Shown here: piece after piece, positions 43,774-60,107 of the stretch
How positions within the stretch are numbered: position 1 is the stretch's first letter
Layout: every line of letters starts with the position of its first letter
Assembly: GCF_000208385.1 (NCBI RefSeq)
Contig: NC_015436.1
Coordinates: 1,860,001 to 1,924,000, forward strand
Reading direction: 5' to 3'
Origin: Parasphaerochaeta coccoides DSM 17374
GTDB taxonomy: Bacteria; Spirochaetota; Spirochaetia; Sphaerochaetales; Sphaerochaetaceae
DNA length: 64,000 bases
Notes under the pieces: model-generated
Databases searched by the model: none
Told to the model about the DNA's origin: nothing
Seen by the model: the letters and a program-made list of their open reading frames with translations, nothing else
Translations under genes and position numbers: made by a program

Positions 43774-43817
43774 TACGCTCCGTCACCATGATAGCATCGT
43801 AGCATTGCACATGCCGG

Positions 43818-43850
43818 GGGATGTTGCAAAAGTTGCGGCATCCCTCTTTT
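43818..43850 (+). terminator. Terminator of fda
   Basis: GGGATG...CATCCC with inner GCAA/TTGC forms an interrupted stem with a 3-nt loop, followed by TCTTTT. The left arm (17 nt, 43817-43833) is identical to the inverted end of the element at 59268-59284. Confidence 0.65.
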
Positions 43851-43925
43851 CCATGGTTCCCATTTTTACGTAATTAACGCTTGAAAATTAATTAATTTAT
43901 AATATTCACGCCTAAAATCACCAAA

Positions 43926-43975
43926 TAACCCGAAAGTATTATATGTTTTTCATGCAAAATCATACCTTTGGGTAA
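43926..43975. repeat. 50-bp dispersed hairpin repeat, copy 1
   Basis: Imperfect palindrome: arms TAACCCGAAAGTAT and ATACCTTTGGGTAA. About 39 of 50 bases match a copy at 59056-59105. It lies in the gap upstream of the RCC1 lipoprotein gene. Confidence 0.75.
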
Positions 43976-44073: not shown

Positions 44074-46358
<2,285 letters not shown>

Positions 46359-57724: not shown

Positions 57725-58915
57725 TCACACAAACTTGAAACCGGCATCTCCCAATGCCCGCCGTATTGCCCTGATGTGATCAAAGTCCTTCGTCTCCAAC
57801 GCCAGACGGAGCGTACAGCTATTCAGGTCAGTACCCTCTCCGGAACGGTCATGATGGACAGCCACCACATTTCCTCCCTGACGAGCTATGATCGCAGAGA
57901 CATCGACAAGCTGTCCTGGCTTGTCCAGCAGTTCAATGGTAAATTCCGTAGAGCGGCCGCTTTTGAGCAGACCACGGGAAATGACACGTGAAAGAATGGT
58001 GACGTCAATGTTCCCTCCGGAAAGAAGACAGACAGTGGTACGGCCTTCAATCTCAATTTTATGAAACATTGCCGCGGCGACTGCCACCGCTCCCGCGCCT
58101 TCGGTGACGAGCTTCTGCTTCTCCATCAAGGCGAGAATCGCCGAAGATACTTCATCATCAGTGACTGTGACAATCTTATCAACATACGTGGCGCACATCT
58201 CATAGGTCAGATCACCGGGATGCTTCACTGCAATACCGTCAGCCATGGTGGAAACTTTACCCAAGGTAATCTTCTGGTGTTGCTCCAGTGAATCATACAT
58301 GGATGCTGCGCCGGCGACCTGGACGCCGTACACGGCACATTCCGGCTTGAGTGCCTTGATTGCATAGGCAATGCCGCTGATCAAACCTCCTCCTCCGACG
58401 GGAACAATGACGGAATCGACATCGGGGAGCTGTTCGAGTATTTCCAGGCCAATGGAGCCTTGACCGGCAATGATGTCTTCATCATCAAAGGGATGGATGA
58501 ACACCCCGCCATTTTCCCTCTGGAGTCGCAACGCTTCCTGATAAGCATCATCATAGACGCCAGGCACAAGACGCACGTCAGCCCCATATGCACGGGTCGC
58601 CTCTACTTTGGAAATTGGCGCAACATCAGGGATGCAGATGACAGCCTTCAAGCCTTCATGCTGGGCGGCCAAGGCAACTCCCTGGGCATGGTTTCCCGCG
58701 GAACAGGCAATCACTCCTTTCTGGCGCAGGTCGGACGGCAACTGGGAAATCTTGTAGTAGGCTCCCCGTACCTTAAAGGAACCGGTAATCTGGAGGTTCT
58801 CGGTTTTCAGGAACACGGAAGAATCCGGGAAAATCCGCGGGGCACGTATCAAATCCGTCCTGCGCACCACAGGATCAAGGATGCGTTTTGCGTGATATAT
58901 TTTGTCAATGGTCAT
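57725..58915 (-). CDS. ilvA: Threonine ammonia-lyase with C-terminal ACT domain
   Basis: 396 aa PLP enzyme that deaminates L-threonine to 2-oxobutanoate. PLP lysine in TGSFKVRGA, SAGNHAQGVA and the phosphate loop GGGGLISG are present; a single ACT domain (ELLDKPGQLVDVSAIIARQGG) ends the protein, as in the TdcB/short IlvA type. GGAGG lies 7 nt before ATG 58915. The enzyme can serve isoleucine synthesis with IlvE or threonine catabolism. Confidence 0.94.
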   Translation of the reverse strand: MTIDKIYHAKRILDPVVRRTDLIRAPRIFPDSSVFLKTENLQITGSFKVRGAYYKISQLPSDLRQKGVIACSAGNHAQGVALAAQHEGLKAVICIPDVAPISKVEATRAYGADVRLVPGVYDDAYQEALRLQRENGGVFIHPFDDEDIIAGQGSIGLEILEQLPDVDSVIVPVGGGGLISGIAYAIKALKPECAVYGVQVAGAASMYDSLEQHQKITLGKVSTMADGIAVKHPGDLTYEMCATYVDKIVTVTDDEVSSAILALMEKQKLVTEGAGAVAVAAAMFHKIEIEGRTTVCLLSGGNIDVTILSRVISRGLLKSGRSTEFTIELLDKPGQLVDVSAIIARQGGNVVAVHHDRSGEGTDLNSCTLRLALETKDFDHIRAIRRALGDAGFKFV

Positions 58916-59026
58916 TGTGCTGCCTCCATACATCCGACCCCACACATGTCCGCAGGGTTATCGGCGAGGATACCATGTAATACCGTTCCATGACCATCAT
59001 ATGTCCGTCACATACCCGTCATACAG

Positions 59027-59284
59027 ACATGCCGGAGGTGGGGATGTTACAAAAGTTACCCGAAAATATTATATGGTTCCTCGTCAAAATCATACTTTCG
59101 GGTAACCGTCACTAGTACCGATATCCCTTGCATTAACTCATCAATTCGTCATGTTTTTTCGTAAAACATCATCATTTCGTTATATTGTGATGCCCAATCT
59201 CCGGATTTTCATGAAAAAGTAAGGGTAAAAAGTGAGAAAGAACGGTATTGTGCTTGCAAGTTCTCACACTTTTGCAACATCCCC
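59027..59284. mobile_element. 245-bp element with inverted ends (MITE-like candidate)
   Basis: GGGGATGTTACAAAAGT (59040-59056) at the left is the inverted match (16 of 17) of ACTTTTGCAACATCCCC (59268-59284) at the right. No coding frame lies between. Inside are the 50-bp hairpin repeat (59056-59105) and a GTGAGAA/TTCTCAC pair. The left end, including ACATGCCGG (59027-59035), also matches the fda terminator region at 43809-43833. No target duplication could be confirmed. Confidence 0.5.
59056..59105. repeat. 50-bp dispersed hairpin repeat, copy 2
   Basis: Arms TTACCCGAAAATAT and ATACTTTCGGGTAA pair with one mismatch. It matches copy 1 (43926-43975) at about 39 of 50 positions. Confidence 0.8.
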
Positions 59285-59370
59285 ATTGGACGCAAGCCAT
59301 CGAGTGCTTGTATCCCAAGCCCGCACTTGCTATCCTGTATGACAGGCATGTCGAAAAAGGCAAACGCCTG

Positions 59371-59398
59371 TTGACGATTTCCTTTTAGTTAGTATGAT
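59371..59398 (+). promoter_or_regulatory. Promoter of tandem PII-like gene
   Basis: TTGACG (59371-59376) and TATGAT (59393-59398) with a 16-bp spacer, about 28 nt before the ribosome-binding site. Confidence 0.6.
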
Positions 59399-59432
59399 GA
59401 TTACATGGCCTGTGATGCCAAGGAAGGTAAAA

Positions 59433-60107
59433 ATGACATCGGACATGGTTTTTTATCCCGGCAAGCTGATACTCAGCATCGTAGCTCATGACCAAGGCGA
59501 AGCAGTGGTCAATGCGACGAAAGATGCTGGCGCGCAGGGAGGTACGATCATCCATGGCAGGAGCGACACATCCTCCCTGCTTGACATCCTGGGTCTTCAT
59601 GACCCGGCGCAGGACATTGTCCTGACACTTTCGGGAGATAATGAAGCAGAAGCTATCTTCCAGGCCGTAAAGACATGCAACCCCACCAAGAAGAACCTGG
59701 GAACAACCATGCTCATCGATGTGCGGGGCATCCTCCATCACATGACCGCCGGAACATCCGAGAATATCCATGCCACAAGGAGCGCTACAATGTCCACGAC
59801 TTCATCACACGTCCTGATTTCCTTCATAGTCAACAAAGGCACAGCAGATGATGCCATGGCAGCCGCCCGTAAAGCAGGAGCGTCCGGTGGTACAATCATC
59901 AACGCCAAAGGTACGGCAAAGGAAGACGACGTAAAGTTCTTCGGCATCACCCTCGTCCCTGAAAAGGAAATGCTGTTGACCATAGTCCCCCAGGACAAGG
60001 CTGTTTCAATCATTGACGCCGTCAAGGCCGTCCCTAGCCTGGAAGAACCGGGAGCTGGCATAGCCTTCACCGTCGATATCATGGAGTTCGCTTTCCTGGG
60101 AAGATAA
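59433..60107 (+). CDS. Tandem PII-like (GlnB-fold) signalling protein
   Basis: 224 aa containing two successive PII-type beta-alpha-beta domains (about residues 10-105 and 120-224). Each has the AGAQGGTII/AGASGGTII turn and a hydrophobic strand pair (LILSIVAHD, VLISFIVNK). Classical PII residues for uridylylation or the T-loop Tyr are not visible, so this is a divergent PII-like sensor. No ammonium transporter or glnA neighbours it. The ATG at 59433 has AAGGAAGG 5 nt upstream; earlier in-frame ATGs lack ribosome sites. Confidence 0.75.
   Translation: MTSDMVFYPGKLILSIVAHDQGEAVVNATKDAGAQGGTIIHGRSDTSSLLDILGLHDPAQDIVLTLSGDNEAEAIFQAVKTCNPTKKNLGTTMLIDVRGILHHMTAGTSENIHATRSATMSTTSSHVLISFIVNKGTADDAMAAARKAGASGGTIINAKGTAKEDDVKFFGITLVPEKEMLLTIVPQDKAVSIIDAVKAVPSLEEPGAGIAFTVDIMEFAFLGR

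Follow-up and report, generated by a model that had tools for sequence, protein, structure and literature searches.

The segment at 59027-59284 is very probably the relic of one member of a lipoprotein gene family, its front end doubly deleted. It lies in a window of 64,000 nt, the whole stretch of DNA analysed here, which corresponds to positions 1860001-1924000 of a spirochaete-type genome consisting of one contig of 2,227,296 bp. The segment had been described from its letters as a MITE or a small RNA or regulatory element; of these readings, the regulatory one holds in so far as the segment appears to consist of regulatory leader DNA with terminator-derived ends, but the element is a truncated gene rather than a MITE or small RNA. 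Sequence alignment establishes the order, orientation, homology and truncation of its blocks.

Composition of the segment

The inner 205 bp (59057-59261) are the beginning of a lipoprotein gene: its 5' leader and ten codons of coding sequence (VRKNGIVLAS...). Positions 59054-59261 (query bases 55-262) match other sites in the genome with 76-81% identity over about 207 bp (other members of the family match more weakly and in part), and the matching copies run on into a lipoprotein signal peptide, for example VRKNGIVLASLLMVLFVFASC, and then a long open reading frame. An intact unit begins, in about a third of cases, with a terminator hairpin closing off the upstream gene. It continues with some 110 bp that probably hold a promoter, a facing pair of boxes of the form TTACCCRAARGTAYTATTT, a leader with ribosome-binding site, the start codon, a lipoprotein signal peptide and a protein of 450-1001 residues, and often ends in a downstream terminator finishing ACTTTTGCAACAYCCC. 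Read against this order on the forward strand, the segment starts with a terminator word (59040-59056) and reaches a left junction of the form AGT/T at 59054-59057, where, compared with intact type-B leaders, about 96 bp of leader including the family promoter candidate are missing; in alignments to intact units this appears as a single clean gap, about 96-104 bp long. In the intact copy within the window, the predicted promoter candidate is at 43874-43903 and falls in the part that the relic lacks. There follow a left operator-like box, TACCCGAAAATATTATAT (59057-59074, forward strand), a right one, TACCCGAAAGTATGATTT (59087-59104, reverse strand), and the rest of a type-B leader (59105-59231, forward strand).

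The label 'non-coding' given to the segment is not fully apt, in view of 59232-59261, an intact coding start that is letter-identical to that of the gene at genome position 1803439. The truncated coding sequence (59232-59342, forward strand) opens with GTG AGA AAG AAC GGT ATT GTG CTT GCA AGT (VRKNGIVLAS) and continues in unrelated sequence after these ten codons; it runs for 36 codons to its stop, contains no lipobox cysteine and does not amount to a complete gene. The segment is classed as a relic because no complete lipobox gene is present and the family sequence stops after ten codons. The right junction consists of AAGT and the 3' half of the terminator that lies downstream of family genes, AAGTTCTCACACTTTTGCAACATCCCC (59258-59284, forward strand), which holds the inverted word at 59268-59284. 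The outer part of this end, TTCTCACACTTTTGCAACATCCCC, is found with small changes past the stop codons of the family genes at 376226-, 1707698+, 2209562+ and 194168-, and the right end as a whole equals the 3' flank of family genes such as 376226- (AAAGTTTTCACACTTTTGCAATATCCC).

Within the leader, 59151-59231 has drifted: its identity to the intact copies is 61%, compared with 76% between one intact copy and another. This excess drift is as expected of a dead copy, though the 30 coding bases match one intact copy exactly. A coding start conserved more strongly than the leader is not what plain decay would predict and counts against the relic reading; gene conversion, or chance over 30 nt, could account for it. 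The relic is probably silent since the promoter candidate and the remainder of the gene are absent.

It is very unlikely that the segment works as a small RNA or regulatory element, folded through the 17-bp inverted repeat in its transcript and controlling the P-II-like gene at 59394/59433. The segment does lie upstream of this forward-strand gene, and in its minimum-energy fold (a raw value of −64.6 kcal/mol over 258 nt) the two words pair with each other, but no convincing promoter-like site was found inside it, the sole forward-strand match (59371-59398) lying downstream, and there is no conservation in 40 related genomes. The drift across 59151-59231 likewise speaks against such a function. 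Rfam searches at gathering and relaxed thresholds returned nothing credible for the segment, and no tRNA or tmRNA was found in the window. The neighbouring gene itself (59394-60107) encodes 237 aa with a C-terminal P-II-like domain and adjoins an ilvA-like gene; in several relatives, its homologue adjoins a gene for a multi-pass membrane protein.

Terminator words and the origin of the inverted ends

The 17-nt word GGGGATGTTGCAAAAGT is present at all three sites reported for it: 43817-43833 (forward strand, exact), 59040-59056 (forward strand, one change) and 59268-59284 (reverse strand, exact), so that the segment does have terminal inverted repeats matching at 16 of 17 bp. With up to three mismatches, 0.26 occurrences of such a word are expected by chance in the whole window. 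Searching the genome at up to two mismatches yields 17 copies, compared with none for a reversed-pattern control, and the word is thus a real repeat. The 9-mer ACATGCCGG is also shared 5' of the words at 43817 and 59040, a match of nine letters being weak evidence. At six loci outside the family, the word adjoins ordinary genes, 30-98 bp 3' of the stop codon and on the same strand, and several of these copies are complete hairpins followed by T runs. The word corresponds to the 5' arm, together with the loop, of an intrinsic terminator reused across the genome. The proposed link to the fda terminator is borne out by the word at 43817, which continues as GGGATGTTGC-loop-GCGGCATCCC-TCTTTT; an intact terminator containing the word stands after fda at 43816-43846 (forward strand), at the start of the intact unit in the window.

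In the family, the word stands 110-125 bp upstream of the leader and boxes in 12 of 33 units, and it is found inverted after the stop codon in several. Among the 12 hairpins of this 5' terminator type, 91.5% of stem cells are paired as against 43-64% in slid controls. Co-change in the stem is not clearly above shuffles, 39-369 of 500 of which reach the observed values across the 12 hairpins, so the hairpin is supported by pairing and not by covariation. The copy at 59040-59056 represents this terminator, which precedes about a third of family leaders, as a relic serving no present gene, the closest gene upstream, threonine dehydratase-like, being oriented in the opposite direction. No compact stem-loop with a T run occurs in 58900-59480; the related site at 43816 qualifies as such an intrinsic terminator. 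Near-perfect long-stem terminators of the GGGGATGYYGC type also occur at genome positions 2171370- and 1515384+, the former in intergenic space that does not precede a family gene.

From AGT repeats at the left junction and AAGT repeats at the right, we infer two illegitimate deletions, which would have joined the 5' terminator arm, the boxes with leader and ten codons, and the 3' terminator arm. The inverted ends would then be the arms of two different terminators with common sequence rather than the ends of a transposon. Counting against the relic reading, the left junction requires one point change, GTA to GTT. It is unlikely, if less so than a functional RNA, that a 205-bp leader piece was instead copied by microhomology into the loop of a pre-existing terminator hairpin, with no deletion of a whole unit. 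In favour of this, a near-perfect, short-looped hairpin would result if the two words were combined, and AGT/AAGT is present at both junctions, but the 5' arm of the family's 3' terminators is another sequence (GGGGGCATYGGTTAAAGT), the left arm of the relic matches the family 5' word, and all retained blocks match intact units in order and orientation. Neither flanking gene requires a terminator at this site. Had such an insertion taken place, the ancestral site would have been the unbroken hairpin GGGGATGTTACAAAAGT-TCTCAC-ACTTTTGCAACATCCCC without a lipoprotein gene.

The word might also be regarded as a terminal inverted repeat, with word-bounded lipoprotein units moving as cassettes and 59027-59284 as an internally deleted copy. 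The segment resembles such a derivative in being short with inverted ends; some intact units carry the word 5' and, inverted, 3' (2209448-2212287 and, in weaker form, 1725412 and the window unit), and the homology that units share tends to break off near the word. Both words are present in only about three of 33 units, however, and unrelated genes have this word as their ordinary terminator. Unlike a MITE, the segment has no second two-ended copy in its own genome or 40 related genomes, the related copies matching only the inner part and then running on into coding sequence, and its ends are terminator arms. No target duplication is seen either, the outside sequences ...gccggaggt and cattggacg... 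sharing none. A transposon-like origin is thus highly improbable, and the more general proposition that units bounded by the inverted 17-bp word are mobile or duplicating cassettes moved by some recombinase, with the segment a MITE-like derivative, is to be given just as little credence.

A further point against the relic reading is that the deletions are deduced from paralogues: the nearest genomes compared belong to other genera and differ in the genes next to their P-II-like genes, and neither an intact nor an empty version of the site was found in any strain or close species. A synteny search with the P-II-like neighbour gave matches in 22 of 41 genomes, the organism's own among them, with different neighbours in those inspected, and an empty site is for this reason not readable in relatives. 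Two further leader relics, one at 229376- with a single box fused to family 3' UTR sequence and one at 1166095+ with boxes followed by an unrelated transporter-like gene, support the loss of family members.

Paired boxes upstream of lipoprotein genes

The '50-bp hairpin' of the preliminary description, said to lie near each left end, is real and occurs at 59057-59104 and, in the intact unit of the window, at 43927-43974 (forward strand). Its position is not constant: in the relic it directly follows the word, whereas in the intact unit it lies about 110 bp away, counted from the first base of the word at 43817. The repeat consists of two facing copies of the box described above, and in the relic the pair, starting at 59057 and 59087, keeps the family spacing of 30 bp. 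About 35 box pairs or part-pairs are found in the regions read, with a spacing of 30 or 40 bp only, that is, one helical turn apart; one duplication, passed on by inheritance, could account for the 40-bp class. Upstream of other lipoprotein genes, the box also stands in direct orientation, as repeats 33-34 bp apart (genome 2171119-2171218 and 1571484-1571518, within the stretches 2171119-2171235 and 1571484-1571535). An RNA hairpin is disfavoured for the 50-bp repeat, as direct-repeat boxes cannot form one and the pairs are spaced at 30 or 40 bp only; putative paired DNA-binding boxes, that is, a predicted protein-binding site, are more likely, and we infer protein binding on this basis. The direct repeats suggest a wider lipoprotein regulon. 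The box-pair pattern had no match in all GTDB species contigs, a set from which the organism's own records may be absent.

The lipoprotein gene family and its AG tracts

At least 33 intact genes with these leaders, encoding 450-1001 aa, are present in the 2.23-Mb genome. Nine are of type B, with a GTG start and no repeat, the tract-free type to which the relic belongs, and 24 start with ATG(AG)9-47. In these 24, a short-unit repeat lies at the 5' end, its length differs between copies and the frame depends on that length, as in slipped-strand phase-variable (contingency) genes. In the one assembly from which tract lengths are known, six of the 24 are in frame with the ATG and 18 are out of frame. 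The intact relative in the window is a lipoprotein gene at 44076-46358 (forward strand) with an ATG(AG)16 start, its tract at 44076-44119, in frame (ON). Residues 57-355 of its product match the fimbrillin-like Pfam domain PF13149 (Mfa_like_1; E 2.6e-28), followed by RCC1 repeats, which are encoded by tandem 171-174-nt repeats at 45189-46348. Fimbrillin-like proteins are best known from Bacteroidota. The window member differs from these in being fused to RCC1 repeats and in belonging to a lineage in which the Pfam family is present in only two of 138 genomes, the organism's own and one of the 137 others searched. None of 138 other genomes from this order contains an ATG(AG)9 start. The intact family genes are all on the reverse strand below 0.6 Mb and all on the forward strand above 0.9 Mb; together with the rRNA on the forward strand at 0.25 Mb and the sign change of GC skew, this suggests that all of them are head-on to replication.

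From tract position and established examples, the AG tracts should switch genes on and off (PMC10564699, PMC3498834), though internal ATGs after the tract might permit frame-independent translation. In Helicobacter pylori oipA/bab, CT repeats convey phase variation of outer-membrane protein genes (PMC10564699, PMC4552749), likewise through a dinucleotide tract in the 5' coding part of surface-protein genes whose length sets the frame; here, in contrast, (AG)n stands directly after the start codon and is present in at least 24 fimbrillin-like lipoprotein genes of one genome. The type III methyltransferase of Mycoplasma mycoides subsp. capri also has AG repeats in its coding region, with 12 AG units and translation ending at TAA (PMC3498834), but is a single modification gene and not a surface-protein family. 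Within a single genome, the family described here may rank among the larger sets of genes switched by dinucleotide repeats.

Remnants like that at 59027-59284 show that members are lost from the family as well as gained. The relic is ordinary in itself and matters less than the family to which it points, a species-specific set of large lipoprotein genes, at least 33 in number, of which 24 have AG tracts beside the start codon; their common box motif also precedes other lipoprotein genes.
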